A stretch of 30,658 nt of DNA from a virus. Both the position numbers and the translations under genes were made by a program. Under the pieces are notes generated by a model. It was not told the origin of the DNA. It did not search any database and saw nothing but the letters and a program-made list of their open reading frames with translations. Each line of letters begins with the position of its first letter. Position 1 is the stretch's first letter. Below, piece by piece: positions 1,628-30,658 of this stretch. The stretch spans positions 1 to 30,658 of the IMG/VR virus record IMGVR_UViG_3300030520_000087; one strand, given 5' to 3'.

Positions 1628-3920
1628 CTTCGAAGATCAGGCCCCGGCTAATGCTCCGTGGAACCTTGAACACTTCATCGCGCTCGACGAGAAGTTGATG
1701 CGCTCCTCGAACCTCGTCGACCGTTTCGACGAGCATGACCTCGACACCCTCGGTGCGATGGTCAAGCAGGACTTCGACAACGACCGGGTCTCTCGCCAAG
1801 AATGGGAAGAGCGGATGCAGTTGGCTATGCGCCTAGCCCTTCAAGTCACCGAGAAGAAGACCTTCCCGTGGCCGGATGCCGCCAACGTCAAGTTCCCTCT
1901 CTTGACTATTGCCGCCCTTCAGTATCAGTCTCGCGCCTACCCCGCGCTGGTCAACGGTGGACAACCTGTCGCTGCTCGTCCGCTACAGAAAATGCCTAAG
2001 CTGACGCTGCCTACGATGCCTCCTGCCCAGCCGGGTCAACCGCCTGACCCCCAGGCGCAGCAGGCTATGCAGCAAGCCCAGCAGCAAGCTCAGCAACTCA
2101 AGGCCAAGTTCGATGCCCTGACCCAACAGGCCAACGAAATAGCCGACCACATGTCTTATCAAATCCTCGAAGAGGACGAGACCTGGGAAGAGAACCACGA
2201 CAAGATGCTCTTGACCCAAGCCATCATGGGGTGCGCCTTCAAGAAGTCCTACTTCGACCCCATCCTGTGCCACAACGTTTCGGAGTTTATCTCCCCGAAG
2301 GACATCGTCGTGTCCTACTACACCAAGGACATTGAGCATGCCCCCCGCCTTACCCACATCATCTACCTCGACCCTAACGCCGTCTACGAGCGCCAAGCCC
2401 GAGGAATCTTTGCCGAGTTCAAAGAAGGTTCCCCCCGAGCCGAGCCCCGACTCCGCTACATGCTCGAAGAAGAGACCGACGACCGACAAGGAATCCGGCC
2501 TGTCGTGGCCGACCACGATGCTCCATACGAGTTGCTGGAACAACATCGCACGCTCGATTTGGACGGCGACGGCTACGCCGAACCATACATCGTCACTGTT
2601 CGCTATGATACGGCCCAAGTGCTGCGAATCGTGCCGCGTTTCACTCGCAAGGATGTTACTTTCCTACCCTCCGGAAAACTCATCCGAATCAACCCTCTGA
2701 CGATGTTCACGAAGTATCCTTTCATCCCCTCGCCGGATGGTGGCTTCTATGACCTCGGATTCGGTGCTCTACTCGGGCCGCTCAATCACGCCATTGATTC
2801 CTCGCTCAACCAGATGCTCGATTCGGGAACCCTTGCCAATGCTGGAGGGGGCTTCCTTGGGCGCGGGTTCAAGAATAAGAAGGGCGAGTATCGTTTCCGC
2901 CCCGGCGAGTGGAAGACTGTTGATGGAAGTGGAGATGACATCAGGAAGAGTGTTGTTCCTCTGCCCCCTCCACCGCCTAACCAGTCGCTCTTCCAACTGC
3001 TCACCCTCCTCATCGAGTATGGACAGCAGATCGCTGGTGCGGTTGACATTCTGCAAGGTAAGAACCCAGGTCAGAATACTCCGGCTGAGACTTCCCGTGC
3101 GATGGTAGAGCAGGGCATGAAGGTGTTCAACGGCATCTTCAAGCGGACGCATCGGGCTTTCACTCAGGAGTTGCGCAAACTGTTCCGCCTGAACTGCGTG
3201 TTCCTTGACGAGAGCATGCCGTACTTCGCTCAGTCAGCCCCGCCGCAGTCTAAGGCAGCAGCGCACCTCTACAAGAATGCCGAGGTTACGATCCGCCCTA
3301 GCGCCGACCCGTTCTACATGTCGGACGCCCAACGCTACAACCAAGCCTCGTCGCTGATGCAGGCGGCAATGGCGGCTCCAGGCTACGACATCTATCAAGT
3401 CCATCGTTACTACCTTCAAGCCCTGAAGGTCCCTGACATCGACAAGTTCCTACCTGATCCTAAGGGTCCGTTCGCCGTTCCGCCTCCGCAGAACCCGAAG
3501 CTTCAGATCGAGCAACTCAAGCAACAGTCGGCTCAGGCCAAGCAGCAACTCGACTTCAAGATCAAGCTCCTCGACTTGGTCTCCAAGGCTGAGTTGCAAC
3601 AAGCCCAAATCAAACTCTTGGAGGCACAAGTTGTTCAAACTCTTGCTGAGGCGAAGGGTGTGGATACTGGGCATCAGATTGCGCTTATTGAGGCGCAAAT
3701 CGGAGCCGCGAAGAACAAGCAAGAGGGAACGCTGGAGGCAATCAAAATCCTCCACTCAATGATGGGTGGCAACGATAAGGAGAGCGATGGTGGCAAGGAC
3801 AGTAGTGGTGGAGGAGGAGGACTGGGTGCTCTTCTCGGCGCATCCGGTGCAACAGGCGGTCAAGGCGATGCTGGAGCGGCACCTCCGGGAGTTGGAGGAG
3901 GAGGAGCTAGCCCGTTTTAG
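1614..3920 (+). CDS. Portal protein (P22-like)
   Basis: Dodecameric head vertex protein: the channel for DNA entry and exit, binding terminase and later the adaptor. 768 residues from the ATG at 1614; an in-frame GTG at 1572 adds 14 residues but has no better ribosome site. Length and order fit the large P22-type portals. There is an N-terminal helical region, a Gln/Pro-rich stretch around residues 130-190 (PAQPGQPPDPQAQQ), a core with DGDGYAEPYIVTVRYD and KYPFIPSPDGGFYDLGFG, and a PGQNTPAETSRAMVEQGMK helix typical of the wing/stem. The last 150 residues are long Gln-rich helices, like the P22 barrel, ending in a Gly/Ser-rich tail. It lies directly after terminase and before chaperonin and scaffold, the usual packaging-head order. 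Confidence 0.93.
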   Translation: MSVTDFEDQAPANAPWNLEHFIALDEKLMRSSNLVDRFDEHDLDTLGAMVKQDFDNDRVSRQEWEERMQLAMRLALQVTEKKTFPWPDAANVKFPLLTIAALQYQSRAYPALVNGGQPVAARPLQKMPKLTLPTMPPAQPGQPPDPQAQQAMQQAQQQAQQLKAKFDALTQQANEIADHMSYQILEEDETWEENHDKMLLTQAIMGCAFKKSYFDPILCHNVSEFISPKDIVVSYYTKDIEHAPRLTHIIYLDPNAVYERQARGIFAEFKEGSPRAEPRLRYMLEEETDDRQGIRPVVADHDAPYELLEQHRTLDLDGDGYAEPYIVTVRYDTAQVLRIVPRFTRKDVTFLPSGKLIRINPLTMFTKYPFIPSPDGGFYDLGFGALLGPLNHAIDSSLNQMLDSGTLANAGGGFLGRGFKNKKGEYRFRPGEWKTVDGSGDDIRKSVVPLPPPPPNQSLFQLLTLLIEYGQQIAGAVDILQGKNPGQNTPAETSRAMVEQGMKVFNGIFKRTHRAFTQELRKLFRLNCVFLDESMPYFAQSAPPQSKAAAHLYKNAEVTIRPSADPFYMSDAQRYNQASSLMQAAMAAPGYDIYQVHRYYLQALKVPDIDKFLPDPKGPFAVPPPQNPKLQIEQLKQQSAQAKQQLDFKIKLLDLVSKAELQQAQIKLLEAQVVQTLAEAKGVDTGHQIALIEAQIGAAKNKQEGTLEAIKILHSMMGGNDKESDGGKDSSGGGGGLGALLGASGATGGQGDAGAAPPGVGGGGASPF

Positions 3921-4047
3921 GGGTGGCGTGGGATTAGATGATCCGCATGAAGAAGCAGTTCGTAGAGCGAAGGCTATCGGTGCGCATGAGGTGTACTCTT
4001 ATTTACTAACGATGGATGAAGAGGACCTATGGGACGACCAAGCATAG
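3868..4047 (+). CDS. Small acidic protein, unknown
   Basis: 59-residue ORF overlapping the portal 3' end by 53 bases. ATG 3868 is chosen because it follows an AAGG-type site; the same frame is open back to a GTG at 3766, but that stretch is a shadow of the portal. Composition: a charged helix (LERHLRELEEEELARF), then HEEAVRRAKAIGAHEVYSYLLTM and an acidic end (DEEDLWDD). It is strongly acidic and probably helical, with no TM segment and no recognised family. Its position between portal and GroES-like gene suggests a head-assembly or regulatory role; this is inference from place only. Confidence 0.5.
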   Translation: MLERHLRELEEEELARFRGGVGLDDPHEEAVRRAKAIGAHEVYSYLLTMDEEDLWDDQA

Positions 4048-4159
4048 CGCAATGTAGAGGTAAGTTTTGCAGCAACTGTAATTTGATACTTGGTCATGCC
4101 GGAGATAGTGAGGTAGTTCTTTTAAACTGTGTGTCATATCTAGAAAGAGGAAGACATCA
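4048..4159 (+). other. AT-richer intergenic stretch before the GroES-like gene
   Basis: A non-coding gap of about 112 bases, one of the longest in the window and visibly richer in A and T than its surroundings. It holds a TTGATA at 4083-4088 that could be a -35 box, but no convincing -10 at 16-18 bases. It ends in AGAAAGAGGAAGACATCA, the ribosome site of the GroES-like gene. It may carry a promoter or an RNA processing site; no hairpin with a T-run is seen. Confidence 0.3.
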
Positions 4160-4477
4160 ATGACAACGAAGTGGAAGCCGAGTGGTAACAAGGTCCTGAT
4201 CTTGATGGACCCGCCCGAAACAACGACTGCGTCCGGCATCATCATTGCCGCTCCCGGTACGTTGGAAGGTCGTGCTGAGATGCAACAGATGGAAGGTACT
4301 GTGGTTGCTTTGGGGGCGCAAGCCTTCCACGACCAACCGGCAGACTGGGTCAAGGTGGGCGATAAGGTCCGCATTGCCAAGTTCGGAGGTTGGCTGTTTC
4401 AAGAAGGCGACCTGAAGAACAAGGTCAATTACCGAGTCGTTCACGACTTGGACATCATGATGGTTCTGGGGGAATGA
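4160..4477 (+). CDS. GroES-like co-chaperonin (Cpn10)
   Basis: Lid subunit for the host GroEL chamber. Phage homologues such as T4 gp31 and RB49 CocO replace or support host GroES so that capsid protein folds. Seen: 105 residues, about the 97 of bacterial GroES; GNKVLILMDPPETTTASGIIIA matches the first strands and the start of the mobile loop (canonical DRVLVKP...GGIILP), EGTVVALG the central strand, VKVGDKVRIAKFGGW the VKVGDKVLF...Y.G strand, and YRVVHDLDIMMVLGE the terminal strands. The mobile loop holds GIIIA, the hydrophobic tripeptide that docks to GroEL. Between portal and scaffold genes, so probably dedicated to head assembly. Ribosome site GAAAGAGGAAGA upstream of ATG. Confidence 0.9.
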   Translation: MTTKWKPSGNKVLILMDPPETTTASGIIIAAPGTLEGRAEMQQMEGTVVALGAQAFHDQPADWVKVGDKVRIAKFGGWLFQEGDLKNKVNYRVVHDLDIMMVLGE

Positions 4478-24461: not shown

Positions 24462-25645
24462 AGGTGGAGGAGGATTGTTCCTCCTTCAACCCTCTGCTTC
24501 ACCATACCCGCAGCTTTAAGCCCTTTGACCACCGCTTGGAAATCATCAAGCTTGGGGAAGTAGTTGTGTACATGCTGATAAGCCGTAGCCATCGGCACTC
24601 CTTGCGCATGTTGCCCGATAAATGAGAGTAGTCGATCAGTCTGCGATGATGTCTCAGATTTCCCAATGCGGTCGAAGATTTGCGGCAGGCTGGCTTCCAG
24701 CGCGGTGATATGGGTCTCAGCATTTTGTAGGTCCTCGACGGTGATGAGCATGGAATCGCCACGGGCGGCGGATAGGATCATCGCCAGCTTGTGGATATGG
24801 GTTTGCTTCCGGGCGAGGTAGCCCCCGAAGCGTGCGTCATCGGCGCCCTTCTTGTGGAGGAAGTAGTGGGCCTGATACCACTCCTCGCCCCAAGCGATAG
24901 CCTCCTCCGTCATGCCGAACTCGCCCTTCAGTTTGGAGATAGCACGGAGGTCCTCGACGAGGCGAATCTCCTGCCTGCGCATCTCACTTGCCGCCGTGTT
25001 GAAGGCTAAGCCGGGGTAGGCAACCAGCTTCCGCTTCTCTTCCCCATAGACCCAGATGATACGGCTCACCAACCCGCCCTCGATCATGTACGGGGGGATG
25101 TTGCCGCTAATCCACCCGGGCGTAGTGCATGCAATCAGGTTGAGAAAGGTGTTCTCAATCGACTCAGCGCCATCCTTCTTCGTCTCCTTGTAGATCGATG
25201 CGCAGTCCCATAGGGACACCAGCATGTCCATCATCTCCCGGTCGTTCGGGGTCAGCAGGTTTCCAAACTCCCCAGAAAAAATGTTGAGTGAATGGGTCTC
25301 AATAGACTCGCCATGACCCTCCTCGGTAACTGAGTTCGCTTTCTTGAAGGACGAAACCAATGCTTGCCACGTAACGACATTCGGCCCGAAGAACACCTCG
25401 TCCACTTGGCGCAGCAACTTCACACCGATACCAGCACACGTTGTCTTCGAGATGATCCCAGGGGGAGCAACGAGGACCACGTAGAAGTTTGCGTACCAAC
25501 GAAACAATCCCTGCTCTAGCCATACCTTCCTCCCCAATGCGCCTGCAATAGTAGACACCCCCGTCCAGAAGAGGAGGTGATCCGGTGCTTCCCCGACCTG
25601 TCCGTAGCGCACGAACTCGTCGAGCCAGTTATCTAGCTTTCTCAT
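24458..25645 (-). CDS. DUF3987-like replication ATPase/helicase
   Basis: 395 residues from the ATG at 25645, which overlaps the polymerase stop (ATGA); an in-frame TTG at 25660 is less likely. Resembles DUF3987-type proteins, often near phage DNA polymerases and thought to be replicative helicases. Seen: FWTGVSTIAGALGRKVW, a P-loop-like VLVAPPGIISKTT at 58-69 in which Ser replaces the usual Gly before Lys, NIFSGEFGNLL (Glu 126, Walker B-like), IACTTPGWI near 171-179 (sensor-like) and GGLVSRIIWVYGE at 190-202 (Arg finger-like). A winged-helix-like end (TDRLLSFIGQHAQGVPMATAYQHVHNYF) may bind DNA. Role inferred from family and operon. Confidence 0.75.
   Translation of the reverse strand: MRKLDNWLDEFVRYGQVGEAPDHLLFWTGVSTIAGALGRKVWLEQGLFRWYANFYVVLVAPPGIISKTTCAGIGVKLLRQVDEVFFGPNVVTWQALVSSFKKANSVTEEGHGESIETHSLNIFSGEFGNLLTPNDREMMDMLVSLWDCASIYKETKKDGAESIENTFLNLIACTTPGWISGNIPPYMIEGGLVSRIIWVYGEEKRKLVAYPGLAFNTAASEMRRQEIRLVEDLRAISKLKGEFGMTEEAIAWGEEWYQAHYFLHKKGADDARFGGYLARKQTHIHKLAMILSAARGDSMLITVEDLQNAETHITALEASLPQIFDRIGKSETSSQTDRLLSFIGQHAQGVPMATAYQHVHNYFPKLDDFQAVVKGLKAAGMVKQRVEGGTILLHL
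24466..24487. terminator. Candidate hairpin at the convergent junction
   Basis: AGGAGGA (24468-24474), loop TTGT, TCCTCCT (24479-24485): a perfect 7-bp stem, extended by a G-U and a G-C pair. Lies five bases past the endolysin stop and inside the last codons of the opposing gene. There is no T-run on the plus strand, so as a terminator it is weak; it may instead protect 3' ends or arise from coding sequence. Confidence 0.3.
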
Positions 25646-26358
25646 TTGCAACGCCCCCAACTATCCGTCGATAGCTTCAGGCCAACAGGGACGATAAGAG
25701 GATCAGGGTAAGGAACGACAATGGTACTTTCGCGGGTGATATCCGCGATATGCTTCTCACGATCTTCCAGCGGAAACTGCCCAGTAAGAGAGTCGTGTAC
25801 TTGAAGCAATATATCCACATCAGGTAGGTTCGCATCGATGTTTGTGTAGGCGTGGTTGATGATGATGGCTACGGTGGATTGGGGAATCCATGCCACCATT
25901 TCGTTGATGATGTTGCCCTCGACCCGGTCGAACCACCTGCGCCGATAGCCGAAAGCATTCTCCATCGTGGCAGTGCGCTCCGCTTTCTTAGTGAGGCGCT
26001 CTTGCCACTGCTTAATTTCCGGGAACTTCTCGAAGTACCACTTCTGAATCCGTGTCACATCGTTGACCAAAAGGCCACACTGTCCGGCTATCGTAGGGGG
26101 CTTCCCCATGTAGTTGGTCCCGTGGCACAGCTTCTTGAAGACTTGGTAGGCCGGGTGGGACTTCGTGATCGACGGGTCGTGGTAATACTCCTGCGCGACG
26201 GCTACGTAAGGCTTTACTCCTGCCGCGAACAGGTCTTTCATCCCCCGGCAGTTCGACTCCCACGTCACTATTCTCAGGTCCGCTGAGTCCAAGTCCAGGT
26301 CGAACATCTCCCGTCCATTGTCCGGTATGAACATCTCTCGGCAGTTTGGGATTGCCAC
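25642..26358 (-). CDS. DNA polymerase family A, C-terminal catalytic half (split)
   Basis: 238 residues with the palm and fingers only. Start is GTG at 26358 with GGAG 8 bases upstream. Motif A is DLDLDSADLRIV with Asp 24 (canonical DYSQIELRI). Motif B is KKLCHGTNYMG at 75-85 (canonical K---[FY]G--YG), with His 79 where Pol I has Phe 762 and T7 has Tyr 526. Motif C is VHDS at 187-190, Asp 189 being the second catalytic carboxylate (canonical VHDE). It picks up the fold right where the N-terminal half ends after NLQNI. All three motifs look intact, so it should be active if it pairs with the other half. It is coupled by ATGA to the helicase-like gene. Confidence 0.9.
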   Translation of the reverse strand: MAIPNCREMFIPDNGREMFDLDLDSADLRIVTWESNCRGMKDLFAAGVKPYVAVAQEYYHDPSITKSHPAYQVFKKLCHGTNYMGKPPTIAGQCGLLVNDVTRIQKWYFEKFPEIKQWQERLTKKAERTATMENAFGYRRRWFDRVEGNIINEMVAWIPQSTVAIIINHAYTNIDANLPDVDILLQVHDSLTGQFPLEDREKHIADITRESTIVVPYPDPLIVPVGLKLSTDSWGRCK

Positions 26359-26752
26359 TGTGAATTCTCCGTTGCTTTTGAATGGCGTCTAGGGCTTGCT
26401 GCTCAGTGGTGAAGTGGCCCAGGTAAGCGTTGCCCCCCTTGGTGCCGCTTACGAACTTGGCGGTCCAGTCCCCGGTGCGGTAGTTGTAGCGCACACCTCC
26501 CATCTTGGGGGGTAGGCCGGTGATTCGGACCCCTACCATATCAGGAATCGAAACCCCACTGAAGACGCTAAGCACAATAAGGTGCTTAAGGGTGGGGTCG
26601 AATTCATTGCCCTCGTAGGCGTGCAGGGACCGCTCCGCTATGCCGGTGACATCGGTGAGCCCCGATACGGTGTAGTTGTAGTCAAGTCGGAACTTCTTCA
26701 GCCAGCGCGAGAAGTACGCGCCAGCCGAGGTCCGGGTTGAGGCTTTCGGCAT
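26012..26752 (-). CDS. HTH-AP2 DNA-binding protein, 3' end overlapping polymerase
   Basis: Open for 246 residues from the ATG at 26752, which has a perfect AAGGAG six bases upstream. Residues about 12-75 look like an XRE-type helix-turn-helix (LTDVTGIAERSLHAYEGNEFDPTLKHLIVLSVFSGVSI). Residues about 86-128 match an AP2 domain: GVRYNYRTGDWTAKF, GGNAYLGHFTTEQQALDAI. AP2 domains in phages usually occur with HNH nucleases; no HNH is seen here. After about residue 131 the frame runs 347 bases into the polymerase C-terminal gene in another frame, and this tail looks like a shadow (Pro, Gly, Arg-rich). So the working protein is perhaps 130 residues with a meaningless tail, or its 3' end was lost. It lies between the polymerase halves. 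Confidence 0.7.
   Translation of the reverse strand: MPKASTRTSAGAYFSRWLKKFRLDYNYTVSGLTDVTGIAERSLHAYEGNEFDPTLKHLIVLSVFSGVSIPDMVGVRITGLPPKMGGVRYNYRTGDWTAKFVSGTKGGNAYLGHFTTEQQALDAIQKQRRIHSGNPKLPRDVHTGQWTGDVRPGLGLSGPENSDVGVELPGDERPVRGRSKALRSRRAGVLPRPVDHEVPPGLPSLQEAVPRDQLHGEAPYDSRTVWPFGQRCDTDSEVVLREVPGN
26367..26370 (-). promoter_or_regulatory. Ribosome binding site of the polymerase C-terminal half
   Basis: GGAG in the context ACGGAGAATTCACA, 8 bases before the GTG at 26358. This decides that the catalytic half has its own translation start rather than being only a spliced or frameshifted exon. The site lies within the 3' part of the HTH-AP2 ORF. Confidence 0.6.
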
Positions 26753-26762
26753 GGCGGTCTCC

Positions 26763-27155
26763 TTAGAAAGCTTTGCCGCCTTCAGCAGCACGGTTCTCGA
26801 CCTTGTGGTCGGGGCGGACTGCGTTGAAGGCCAGCTTCTCTTCGATGGCGCCACCTAAGTCGAGGTCGAGGGCACCGGCCAAGTCGCCAATGCGAATCAT
26901 GGCATCAGCCAGTTCCACTTCCAGCATCGTCCGGTGCGGGAGCTTGTCGTCCATCAGGTTCTTGCGATAACCTTCGAGCCCCTCGCTAACCTCCGAGTGG
27001 ATGAGGCACAGCTTCTCCTGCACGATGCGATACTTCTTGAGGTTCTCCGGGGCGCAGAGGTTCTCGCCCGTCTTCAAGTCCGTCCACCATCCAGCATTGT
27101 AGGAAGCCTTAAAGCACACCGACACAAACTTGTTGACACCGTCACGTACTGACAT
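26763..27155 (-). CDS. MazG-like nucleotide pyrophosphohydrolase
   Basis: 130 residues from the second of two adjacent ATGs (27155, overlapping the polymerase stop as TGATG); the first, 27158, gives one more residue. GGAG lies 7 bases before the chosen ATG. All-alpha NTP-PPase pattern: HSEVSEGLEGYRKN with Glu 55 and Glu 58, then EVELADAMIRIGDLAG with Glu 81 and Asp 84, the E-x-x-E / E-x-x-D metal-binding set of MazG proteins. These hydrolyse NTPs or dNTPs to monophosphates, or lower ppGpp. Its position inside the polymerase split and next to a UDG domain suggests dNTP-pool cleaning, for instance removal of odd nucleotides. Confidence 0.85.
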   Translation of the reverse strand: MSVRDGVNKFVSVCFKASYNAGWWTDLKTGENLCAPENLKKYRIVQEKLCLIHSEVSEGLEGYRKNLMDDKLPHRTMLEVELADAMIRIGDLAGALDLDLGGAIEEKLAFNAVRPDHKVENRAAEGGKAF

Positions 27156-28816
27156 CATTCATCTCCAGCAGTAATGTTTTGCAGGTTATACCCGCTACCA
27201 AAGGCGTCCGTAGAGGACGAGAAACGGAACGTAGTTGTTCCAGTTATGTTGTAGGAGCAGTGGACTCTTCCATCATGGCCTATTGCTCCTGCCTTCAACG
27301 CGTTCGCTGCGACGGTTTCACAAGAGCGAAACTCTTTGATAGCATCAACCAGCGGTCGGAGGTATGGAACTTTTGCGCGGAACGTATCAAGCGCTGCGTC
27401 GTCACACGATGGACCGATAGAACCGCGTTTCTTCTGGACCGGTAAGCCAAGCTCTTCGTAGAAGAACTTCTGCATTTGCTTGGGCGACTTAGGGTTGAGC
27501 GGCCACCCCACCATCTGCTCGATAGCCTGGATACATTCCTTCGCATGGTGGTTCAGCCTCGCTCGCATTGCAGTCTGTCGTGCCTTATCGATGCGTACAC
27601 CCCGAACCATAGTACGCAGCACTGGATAGAATAGCTTCTGCTGAAAGTCGTGTGGTCCACGCAGTCCCATCTTATCCACAACGGTCTGAAGAACTTCATC
27701 GGCCTCATAAGTCCGAACGCAGTCCTCACAGTTGTACGTCCAATAACGATCTTCATCTTGGTCTGCTCCTTTGTCCCATTCCTTGCCATCATCCTTCCAA
27801 TACACGTACCACTCGTTAGTCATCGACGCGATATGGTCGAGGGACTTCGGCATTCCCGGAAAGCAAACGTGGAAGGCGACCATAGTGTCACGCCCAAAGC
27901 GTGGTACGAATCCCCAATGCCGCAGAATATACTGAGTGTCGTAGATGAAGTTTTGTCCGATGACCAATGCGTTACGGTGCGTGAGAACCCGATAGAGAAG
28001 GTAGACAATCTCAGCCTCATCGTCCTGTGACCAATAGCCGTCTGGACGGTCGACAGAGAGGAATGGGATGCAAATGGCATCGAGCTTGCTCCAGGCAATG
28101 CCCAAGCAAGTGATGTGCTGGGCGCGAGTTTCTATGTCGGTCGAGAGGACGAGGGGGGCGGTAGCTGCATCAAGCGTGGCTTCCAGATTCGCCATCGTTT
28201 CTCGCACCTGCTGCAATGAAGGTCGTATAGCAAACCTCCATGCGGGCTTAACAGGAGGGATAGTTGCGGCTTGTGCGGCCCTCCGCAAGTCTTGCACGAC
28301 GATGGGGCGTGTAGACCACTGGCGTAGGACAGAGGCAGGGTGCAGAGTAGGAACAATTGTTACCCCTGGAAGGGAAGGCACAGTAAGAGTGCTTCCACGC
28401 CACTTAGAAACAGAAACGAGGCCAGTAAGAGCCCAAAGAGCAGTATTACCCAGCGCAATAATGAGCCGGGGTTGAACGAGGGCGATTTCCTCTTGGAGCT
28501 TTTCATAGCCTTCCTTGATGTAGCGGTGAACGATGCGGCCTTGGCACTCGACGCCGTTTTCGGAGCCAGCCAACTCGGTCTGCCCCTTTTTTGTGGGGGG
28601 CGCCCACAACTCGATCTTATTCCCCGGCGGACGTTCACGCACGGCGCTCGTCACGAAGCACGAGGAAACGGCTATCCCGGCCTCCGCAAGCATGCGCCCT
28701 AGCAACTCCCCAGGGTTCTGCCCAAAAGGGCGTGGCACCCCCTTCCTGTCGAAATCTGGGGCATCCGAGATGACCATGATCCGGGCATCAAGTGGACCTT
28801 CAGGGCGAAACGACAT
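27155..28816 (-). CDS. UDG-like domain fused to exonuclease and N-terminal half of DNA polymerase family A (split)
   Basis: 553 residues from ATG 28816 (TGATG overlap with the gene before). Residues about 10-165 form a uracil-DNA glycosylase family 4/5-like domain: IMVISDAPDFDRKGVPRPFGQNPGELLGRML (canonical GEAPG...GRPFVG-AG-LL), LIIALGNTA near 118-126, and LHPAS at 158-162. It lacks the four Cys of the iron-sulphur type, as in SPO1-like polymerases. A 3'-5' exonuclease follows: DIET 227-230, NFIYD 289-293, YNCED 361-365. The thumb and start of palm (FYPVLRTMVRGVRID; LNPKSPKQMQKFF; TTTFRFSSS) end in YNLQNITAGDE and a TGA stop at 553. The catalytic motifs are in the separate gene at 25642-26358. 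Confidence 0.92.
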   Translation of the reverse strand: MSFRPEGPLDARIMVISDAPDFDRKGVPRPFGQNPGELLGRMLAEAGIAVSSCFVTSAVRERPPGNKIELWAPPTKKGQTELAGSENGVECQGRIVHRYIKEGYEKLQEEIALVQPRLIIALGNTALWALTGLVSVSKWRGSTLTVPSLPGVTIVPTLHPASVLRQWSTRPIVVQDLRRAAQAATIPPVKPAWRFAIRPSLQQVRETMANLEATLDAATAPLVLSTDIETRAQHITCLGIAWSKLDAICIPFLSVDRPDGYWSQDDEAEIVYLLYRVLTHRNALVIGQNFIYDTQYILRHWGFVPRFGRDTMVAFHVCFPGMPKSLDHIASMTNEWYVYWKDDGKEWDKGADQDEDRYWTYNCEDCVRTYEADEVLQTVVDKMGLRGPHDFQQKLFYPVLRTMVRGVRIDKARQTAMRARLNHHAKECIQAIEQMVGWPLNPKSPKQMQKFFYEELGLPVQKKRGSIGPSCDDAALDTFRAKVPYLRPLVDAIKEFRSCETVAANALKAGAIGHDGRVHCSYNITGTTTFRFSSSTDAFGSGYNLQNITAGDE

Positions 28817-29166
28817 CAGAGGTTCCTCATAAAGTCTTTGTGGGCGTCGTAGTCGAAGCCGTTGGGCAGTTCCCGAGACGTTTGCAGAGGCGGCGCCAGT
28901 AGACTGGCGTACCACGTGATGTAGCGGCTGGCCGAGGACAGTGAGACCTCGGTTCCTCCATAGAAACTCTGCGCCTGCCGCGAAGTGATCTTGGCACGGA
29001 AGACATCCGCACTCATCACCGATATCACCTCCCCCTCGAAGATGTCGGCGGTGTTGGGATTGATGGAGGTGTCGTCGTAATGGAAGCGATCCCCCACTTG
29101 GATGTTGTGGGGGGAAGCCATCTGCGCCCCGTAGGGGGTATAGGGATTCGTTGCCCATTGAGTCAT
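28816..29166 (-). CDS. Small protein with shared C-terminal motif, unknown (a)
   Basis: 116 residues from ATG 29166, which overlaps the preceding stop (ATGA); the frame is open further upstream but that is shadow. Beta-like body: NIQVGDRFHYDD, ADIFEGEVISVMSADVFRAKIT, reminiscent of a small SH3-like or PUA-like barrel, but not recognised. It ends NGFDYDAHKDFMRNL. This tail is shared with two nearby small proteins. Its ATGAGG codons (Met-Arg) supply GAGG for the polymerase start 8 bases on. Function unknown. Confidence 0.6.
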   Translation of the reverse strand: MTQWATNPYTPYGAQMASPHNIQVGDRFHYDDTSINPNTADIFEGEVISVMSADVFRAKITSRQAQSFYGGTEVSLSSASRYITWYASLLAPPLQTSRELPNGFDYDAHKDFMRNL

Positions 29167-29459
29167 AGCGACCTCATGAAGTCTTCGTATGCTTCGCGGT
29201 TGAAGTGGACCACGGCCCCGCCTACTGCGGCGACAGCCTTGTCGGGGTGAGCAGCGCACCAGTCGAGGTAGCGGCGTTCGACTACGGCCACCTGGTGCTT
29301 GGTGAAGGGAACTATGTCGCCGTCTTCGGGGGACTCTCCACGAGAGACGACATTGAAGAAGGCCGTCTCATGGGTCCGGGCATCGTAGGTGATGAAGGCT
29401 GTATAGACGCCTGCCCTAGACAGGTCGTTATCTACACATTCGTGTTTGTAAAAGATCAT
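29163..29459 (-). CDS. Small protein with shared C-terminal motif, unknown (b)
   Basis: 98 residues; start ATG at 29459 overlaps the preceding stop (ATGA) and has ACAGGA upstream. Alpha/beta: MIFYKHECVDNDLSRAGVYTAFITYDARTHETAFFNVV, then VAVVERRYLDWCAAHPDKAVAAVGGAVVHF. It ends FNREAYEDFMRSL, matching the tails of its neighbours at the residue level though third codon positions differ. GAGG in the Met-Arg codons lies 5 bases before the next start. No known family. Confidence 0.6.
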   Translation of the reverse strand: MIFYKHECVDNDLSRAGVYTAFITYDARTHETAFFNVVSRGESPEDGDIVPFTKHQVAVVERRYLDWCAAHPDKAVAAVGGAVVHFNREAYEDFMRSL

Positions 29460-29692
29460 GGTAAGTTCCTGTGTTTAAGGGGCCATCCCGTCTTGCGGCG
29501 TTCCTCGTCGCGGGCTTGGTGGTTCTTCCACCAGAGTTGAACGGTCTTACTACACTGGGGGATGAGGCCAGCCTCGGCAGCTTTGTGTAAGACTTCGCAA
29601 GCCACTGCTGCTGCTAGGTCGGCACTGGAAATATCGAGACCGTACATCAACTTGTTCTCGTGCTCATCTTGCCCGTTGTCAGAGCATGGCAT
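29456..29692 (-). CDS. Small helical protein, unknown
   Basis: 78 residues from ATG 29692 overlapping the preceding stop (TGATG), with GGAGAAGGG just before. Contains LDISSADLAAAVACEVLHKAAEAGLIPQ, mostly helical, then a basic C-terminus (RDEERRKTGWPLKHRNLP). Two Cys early on. It does not carry the shared FMR tail. No recognised family; a small accessory in the early operon. Confidence 0.55.
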   Translation of the reverse strand: MPCSDNGQDEHENKLMYGLDISSADLAAAVACEVLHKAAEAGLIPQCSKTVQLWWKNHQARDEERRKTGWPLKHRNLP

Positions 29693-29829
29693 CACCCTTC
29701 TCCTCTCATAAATGCTTTGTGCGCTTCCCAATCTACTTCCTCGGGGTCGAGGCCAGCACGGTGCTTGGGCTTGGGCTCCTCGGGGGCGGTGCGGAACTCA
29801 GGCGCCGGGTACTTGTAGCAGACGATCAT
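29692..29829 (-). CDS. 45-residue protein with shared C-terminal motif, unknown (c)
   Basis: A 46-codon ORF. ATG 29829 overlaps the preceding stop (ATGA). Pro/Glu-rich body (YPAPEFRTAPEEPKPKHRAG) then LDPEEVDWEAHKAFMRGEG at the end. The tail matches FDYDAHKDFMR and FNREAYEDFMR of genes (a) and (b). The rest seems a flexible linker, so the tail may be the working part. Its AGAGGAG codons (Met-Arg-Gly) are the ribosome site of the next gene. Confidence 0.55.
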   Translation of the reverse strand: MIVCYKYPAPEFRTAPEEPKPKHRAGLDPEEVDWEAHKAFMRGEG

Positions 29830-30235: not shown

Positions 30236-30658
30236 TCATTCGAACTCCGGTTCAGGTCGGCGGACGTGGAAGACGGTTAGGCCCTCACCGGTCAGCATCT
30301 CTACGATTCGGGGCTCGTCTTCGAATGCGCAGATAACTCGTTCTTTGGGAACGGGGGAGTCGTTGAGCCACCTCTTCTTCAGACTGGCGGCGCTCAGGAA
30401 AGTTCCCTCGGGGCGCATCAGGAGTTGGTGGTACGGGATTGAGTGGCGTTCCAGCCAGATTTTGGTCATGGCTTCGACACCAACTGTTCTTCCTGTCCAC
30501 AACCAAATTTGTTTTCCGCTCTGGGACAGGGCGCGCAGCATCGCTACTGTCGCGGGAATGGGTAGGTCGTACTCGCACTGGGATTCGGACCCGGTCCAAT
30601 CTATGTTCTCCCGAGAGAGGTAGTGAAGGCGGTGGTCGATGTTGGCGATGGTGCCGTC
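30236..30658 (-). CDS. HAD-superfamily phosphatase (nucleotidase/PNKP-3'-phosphatase-like), 5' partial
   Basis: The frame is open to the window edge, so the 5' end of the gene is missing; 140 residues seen. It begins DGTIANIDHRLHYL, the second half of the HAD nucleophile motif DxDGT. It continues IWLWTGRTVGVEAMTKIWLERHSIPYHQLLMRPEG (motif II Thr-Gly-Arg and the typical LLMRP), SLKKRWL (motif III Lys) and FEDEPRIVEML (motif IV acidic pair), ending VFHVRRPEPEFE. This is the pattern of HAD proteins like the phosphatase half of T4 polynucleotide kinase. It probably removes 3' or 5' phosphates from nucleic acid or nucleotides. Confidence 0.8.
   Translation of the reverse strand, partial: DGTIANIDHRLHYLSRENIDWTGSESQCEYDLPIPATVAMLRALSQSGKQIWLWTGRTVGVEAMTKIWLERHSIPYHQLLMRPEGTFLSAASLKKRWLNDSPVPKERVICAFEDEPRIVEMLTGEGLTVFHVRRPEPEFE

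Follow-up and report, generated by a model that had tools for sequence, protein, structure and literature searches.

A 13-residue C-terminal ending shared by otherwise dissimilar small proteins of a phage clade, a possible docking helix

Introduction

Three small proteins, denoted a, b and c, end in a common sequence of 13 residues with the consensus [FIV][ND]x[DEK]A[HY]x[DE]FM[RK][GSN]L-stop. They are encoded in a replication operon on the minus strand (24.5-30.6 kb) of the DNA analysed here, the window, which comprises 30,658 bases of an IMG/VR virus record. The same ending is found in related phages (L016, L017, L118, L139/G006, L052/G050821, L090 and L101), gathered as relatives of the polymerase and of protein b, and it is carried by at least four different bodies, namely those of the SH3-like protein a, of protein b, of a CxxC protein and of protein c, while a 196-residue protein of L090 probably represents a further distinct one. 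Judged from the sequences and from structure prediction, the ending is best explained as a C-terminal docking (targeting) helix that would bind one partner, a reading to which we assign a probability of roughly one half (0.52).

Results and Discussion

Definition and statistics of the ending

Table 1. Features of the tail-gene cassette and its borders in the window.
Feature	Position	Strand	Remarks
Protein a gene	28816..29166	-	116 aa; putative SH3-like beta body and tail; stop 28816-28818
Tail of a, FDYDAHKDFMRNL	28819..28857	-	translation, profile
Met-Arg codons with GAGG (28825-28828), overlap of the stop with the ATG of the DNA polymerase gene	28814..28830	-	
Protein b gene	29163..29459	-	98 aa; body of unassigned fold and tail; stop 29163-29165
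Tail of b, FNREAYEDFMRSL	29166..29204	-	translation, profile
TGAGGTCGCTATGA, ribosome site and overlapping stop/start	29163..29176	-	recurs in L017, at the end of a gene without tail
Protein c gene	29692..29829	-	45 aa; short body and tail; stop 29692-29694
Tail of c, VDWEAHKAFMRGE, then G and the stop	29698..29736	-	translation, profile
Small protein between b and c	29456..29695	-	without tail
UDG-PolA DNA polymerase, first part	27155..28816	-	3' border of the cassette
HAD polynucleotide-phosphatase gene (PF25109)	30236..30658	-	5' border of the cassette; truncated by the window end

Every tail terminates in FM[RK][GSN]L except that of c, which reads FMRGEG (C-terminus VDWEAHKAFMRGEG before the stop), and the position of the tail is strictly terminal, with an offset from the stop of 0, or of 1 in c. 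Translation bears out the C-terminal motif that the initial annotation had described for a, b and c, and its span from 28816 to 29829, and places all three genes on the minus strand, where that annotation had given no strand; the recurrence is larger than first noted, extending over eight related phages and at least four bodies without detectable mutual similarity. In the window, the translations of the gene between b and c and of the two genes upstream of c do not contain the motif.

With a position-specific profile, 14 tails from the eight phages score 32.6-43.5 bits, the next best of 2,567 ORF ends 11.2 bits and the best internal place 10.6 bits. Since these tails trained the profile, their scores are circular, and the profile was retrained with one body family left out at a time; every tail then scores 21.3-36.4 bits as compared with at most 12.6 bits for 2,553 other ORF ends. 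A DNA pattern anchored at the stop, A[HY]x[DEA]FM[RK]xL-stop, occurs in nine stretches among 2.9 million viral contigs, all of them from this clade, and a slightly stricter pattern has a single occurrence among 84,980 prokaryote genomes (Agathobacter), for which no covering ORF of at least 25 residues was found. By this search of gene ends, which had been proposed with the motif, and by the held-out profile, the motif is far commoner at gene ends of the clade than expected, and chance similarity is not the explanation of the endings.

Copies of the motif elsewhere in viral contigs (82 stretches) are mostly internal, many belong to one family, or they lack the final xL (L024, L103); the match AFDEFMKG of an Erwinia phage is internal in another protein and not a tail. 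A tblastn search of 50,697 phage records with a, b, their tail-bearing relatives and two tail peptides of 21-25 residues yielded no relative, and the tail profile gave chance matches only among PDB sequences.

Bodies of the tail-bearing proteins

The bodies were regarded as unrelated from the outset, and profiles from which the tails had been removed agree with this, the comparisons of b with CxxC, b with SH3-like and CxxC with SH3-like each giving a probability below 1%; these profiles are shallow (3-5 sequences) and of low power, such that the result may reflect missing evidence as much as a true lack of similarity. Divergence of the bodies from one ancestor is, with the same little power, unsupported. 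The 196-residue protein of L090 does not match the SH3-like profile, and a 103-residue protein of the same phage matches the CxxC profile only in the region of its CxxCG. Pfam, PHROGs and PADLOC assign neither a, b and c nor the remaining tail proteins to a family, the matches being weak and non-significant; with respect to an OB-fold, a, b and c have no convincing Pfam or PHROG match and b has no fold match, Foldseek with the b model returning nothing at E<=0.001. The SH3-like body of protein a is our own reading of its VGDR...FEG sequence and of a beta-rich model, without a library match.

Conservation of the tail in homologues

The initial annotation had named two findings that would refute the motif, no excess at gene ends and its absence from homologues; both were looked for, and neither refutes it. 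All detected relatives of b carry it (4/4 distinct proteins, with Ala replaced by Gly in L118), as does a relative of a in G006, whereas a distant SH3-like paralogue of a in L090 (3881-4135) ends LPKGFI-stop, with the stop located where the tail would start. The tail is likewise present in every relative detected for the CxxC protein, a result that is partly circular because their search used a pattern within the tail; the search for b relatives used body patterns and is not circular. In relatives of b the tails are 62-77% identical as compared with 36-54% for the bodies, and in full-length CxxC proteins (L101 and L090 left out) the corresponding values are 69-85% and 36-53%. The tail is thus better conserved than the bodies in both families.

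Protein motif and ribosome site

The GAGG that had been placed 5-8 bases upstream of the next start is present for b and a; in c a AGAGGAGAAGGG stretch precedes a GTG/ATG start. The initial annotation had also set the Met-Arg codons, as part of a ribosome site, apart from the rest of the motif, and this division holds up by codon counts and by a neighbouring gene in L017 that shares the end without the motif. There, TGAGGTCGCTATGA closes both b and its tail-less neighbour, which reads it as RSL-stop only, so that the gene end combines a ribosome-site module (the last 3-4 residues) with a protein motif lying further upstream. Arg codons of the tails are AGR in 11/11 cases, as compared with 22% in genome-wide usage (p ~6e-8 if independent), which is the constraint expected from the downstream gene's Shine-Dalgarno site; it explains the last residues alone, namely Met-Arg/Lys, and not the rest of the motif.

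The further claim that third codon positions differ is correct overall but not for Arg (AGR only) and for the Asp/Glu before Phe (GAC/GAA only). Ala is encoded by all four of its codons, Phe by both and Leu by four. Among pairs of tails on different bodies 160/336 same-residue codons are identical, as compared with 134 expected from codon usage, and among pairs from the same genome 16/34 as compared with 13.6; these counts are guides, related sequences being non-independent, and the excess resides mainly at Arg and at the Asp/Glu before Phe. At the latter (tail position 8, 13 tails) every Asp is encoded by GAC and every Glu by GAA, although usage is about even, and the ribosome site provides no explanation. 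The CxxC protein of G005 and the 196-residue protein of L090 have 12/13 tail residues in common, with ~8/11 informative codons changed. The tail is conserved as protein sequence.

These data bear on the reading of the ending as a gene-end module, 3' end and ribosome site together, that was copied and has no protein function. The Arg codon constraint and the occurrence of the L017 module without the tail are in line with it, and copying of this kind does occur here: the neighbouring L090 genes 3881-4135 and 4132-4329 end LIDYLPKGFI-stop and PIDYLPKGFV-stop, the AAGGGG ribosome site included, with 27/30 bases of the IDYLPKGF[IV]-stop ends identical by eye. Codon identity within genomes close to the usage expectation and the free choice of Ala and Phe codons argue to the contrary, as do the persistence of the tail beyond the divergence of the bodies and the 103-residue L090 protein, which retains FMRGL with no start just downstream in the frame of the next gene. 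Taken alone, the copied module is therefore improbable. Gene-end copying may nevertheless have spread the tail between genes, the L090 pair being a fresh example with another ending; it may account for the spread of the tail but not for its maintenance.

Gene context and distribution

By their polymerases, the phages with tails group as a single clade (100/100 support). No tail is found in its sister group, nor in the sequence examined of distant polymerase relatives (~30-50% identity). No clade contig covering the cassette is without a tail gene, and these genes are always located between the HAD_PNKP (PF25109) and UDG-PolA genes; there are one to three per genome, in varying combinations of bodies. 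HAD_PNKP, the clade-specific gene adjoining them, is present in 7/7 of the tail genomes that were compared, whereas 7 tail-less sets, the majority of them partial, gave no detection; it is a candidate partner by association only. The structural genes are likewise clade-specific, hence co-occurrence does not point to a replication partner alone. This would also suit a tail that directs proteins into the virion, as a cargo-loading peptide binding the capsid interior in the way encapsulin cargo uses C-terminal peptides, but the tail genes belong to the replication operon, whereas the structural genes lie on the other strand, and we regard virion loading as very improbable.

Several further observations concern the gene maps. 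In L090 two tail-bearing ORFs (3148-3459 and 3294-3884) have 166 bases in common, read in different frames, and the first tail is encoded within the second ORF. The PolA gene of the window (25642-28816, minus strand) is split after NLQNI, as it is at the same site in other clade members, and its parts are separated by two ORFs, one (26763-27158) for a MazG-like pyrophosphatase and one whose HNH/AP2-like matches are weak; this region has no Rfam match at the gathering threshold. In Vibrio phage vB_VspS_VS-ABTNL-3 (L115, 11956-15090) the annotation divides the polymerase into two genes that flank a small one, an arrangement like that of the window clade. A 59-residue ORF (L113, 80-259; MW202489.1) is annotated as class D beta-lactamase OXA-58, for which it is far too short, probably a misannotation.

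Predicted structure of the tail

AlphaFold models, which are weak owing to alignments of 3-4 sequences, contain a helix at residues 88-97 of b, with a confidence of ~81 in the last block, and one at residues 106-114 of a (mean pLDDT 57.9), following a stretch (86-102) with pLDDT below 50. In a and the CxxC proteins a proline/glycine-rich linker joins the tail to the body, and the tail of a is predicted to be a terminal helix after a disordered linker. In such a helix the hydrophobic positions 1, 5, 9 and 13 together with 6 and 10 would lie on one face, and [ND] at position 2 would be suited to a helix cap.

A helix that packs on its own body or self-associates, serving folding or oligomerisation with no outside partner, would be consistent with the fairly confident terminal helix of the b model, which looks as if it could pack on the body, and with the single tail gene of two genomes. 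One sequence recurring on several unrelated bodies is hard to reconcile with packing on each of them, and in a the helix comes after the disordered linker, so that this reading seems rather unlikely, though the tail may still mediate self-assembly. Less probable still is a stability or degradation signal for a host or phage protease. Its strictly terminal placement on short early proteins would be fitting, but known bacterial C-terminal degrons use fewer positions than the thirteen conserved ones with a putative helical face found here, and the single place in the prokaryote genomes indicates that the tail is no copy of a common host tag.

A terminal helix on a flexible linker, with a sequence retained across changing bodies, is what a docking tail usually looks like, and docking is favoured; the docking, recruiting or degradation role suggested with the motif would be a reasonable one. 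The general mark of such tails, one shared short terminal sequence on unrelated proteins with conservation at the protein level, is present. Against docking stands the fact that most cassette proteins of the clade are tail-less, including the likely SH3-like paralogue in L090; the single tail genes of G006 and G050821 imply that several tagged proteins per genome are not required.

Proposed mechanism and comparison with known systems

As the ending is kept at protein level, it is probably an address tag for one common partner. Each genome carries this portable tag on between one and three small early proteins with different bodies. The tail would be bound by the common partner, and several small proteins could thereby be gathered at a single site, for which the DNA replication/repair machinery of the phage is the most likely candidate. 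The last tail codons double as the ribosome site of the downstream gene. More tentatively, this may amount to an address-tag system in which a dedicated phage partner (the UDG-polymerase, the HAD phosphatase or some other protein of replication, for instance) would assemble small proteins whose set varies, the tag being retained while the bodies that bear it are exchanged between related phages.

Sliding-clamp binding motifs (the PIP box and the bacterial QLxLF type) are short motifs common to unrelated replication proteins. The 14 tails differ from them in having no QxxL/IxxFF or QLxLF-type sequence and no Gln-led hydrophobic motif, and no clamp gene is among the cassette genes noted. Encapsulin cargo-loading peptides place one peptide, often C-terminally, on unrelated cargoes of one binding partner. 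The phage tail resembles them in being one terminal peptide on unrelated proteins and is set apart by gene context, as no shell gene is seen and the tail genes adjoin the HAD_PNKP and UDG-PolA replication genes (for encapsulin cargo targeting, see excerpts of PMC5959871). SSB-Ct, according to excerpts of two papers (PMC7145534, PMC10018359), is a short conserved C-terminal peptide that follows a disordered linker and docks in DNA metabolism. The likeness extends to the short conserved terminal peptide behind a disordered linker, but one SSB bears the tip that many partners bind, whereas here many proteins bear the tail, and the phage tails have no acidic tip ending in PF. A G006 early protein (L109, 2361-2795) ends PVPDDLPF-stop, similar to the SSB-type acidic tip. 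No matching shared phage ending is found by title or abstract in the open-access literature. A portable C-terminal docking peptide is of a known kind; the tail sequence family and its use on varying small phage proteins appear to be undescribed.

The function of most small early phage genes is not known, and a tag on unrelated ones would indicate a same place of action. Identification of the single partner would assign a function to all tagged proteins together. The locus furthermore depicts how a tag is retained as bodies turn over, and how gene ends can serve jointly as protein motif and ribosome site.
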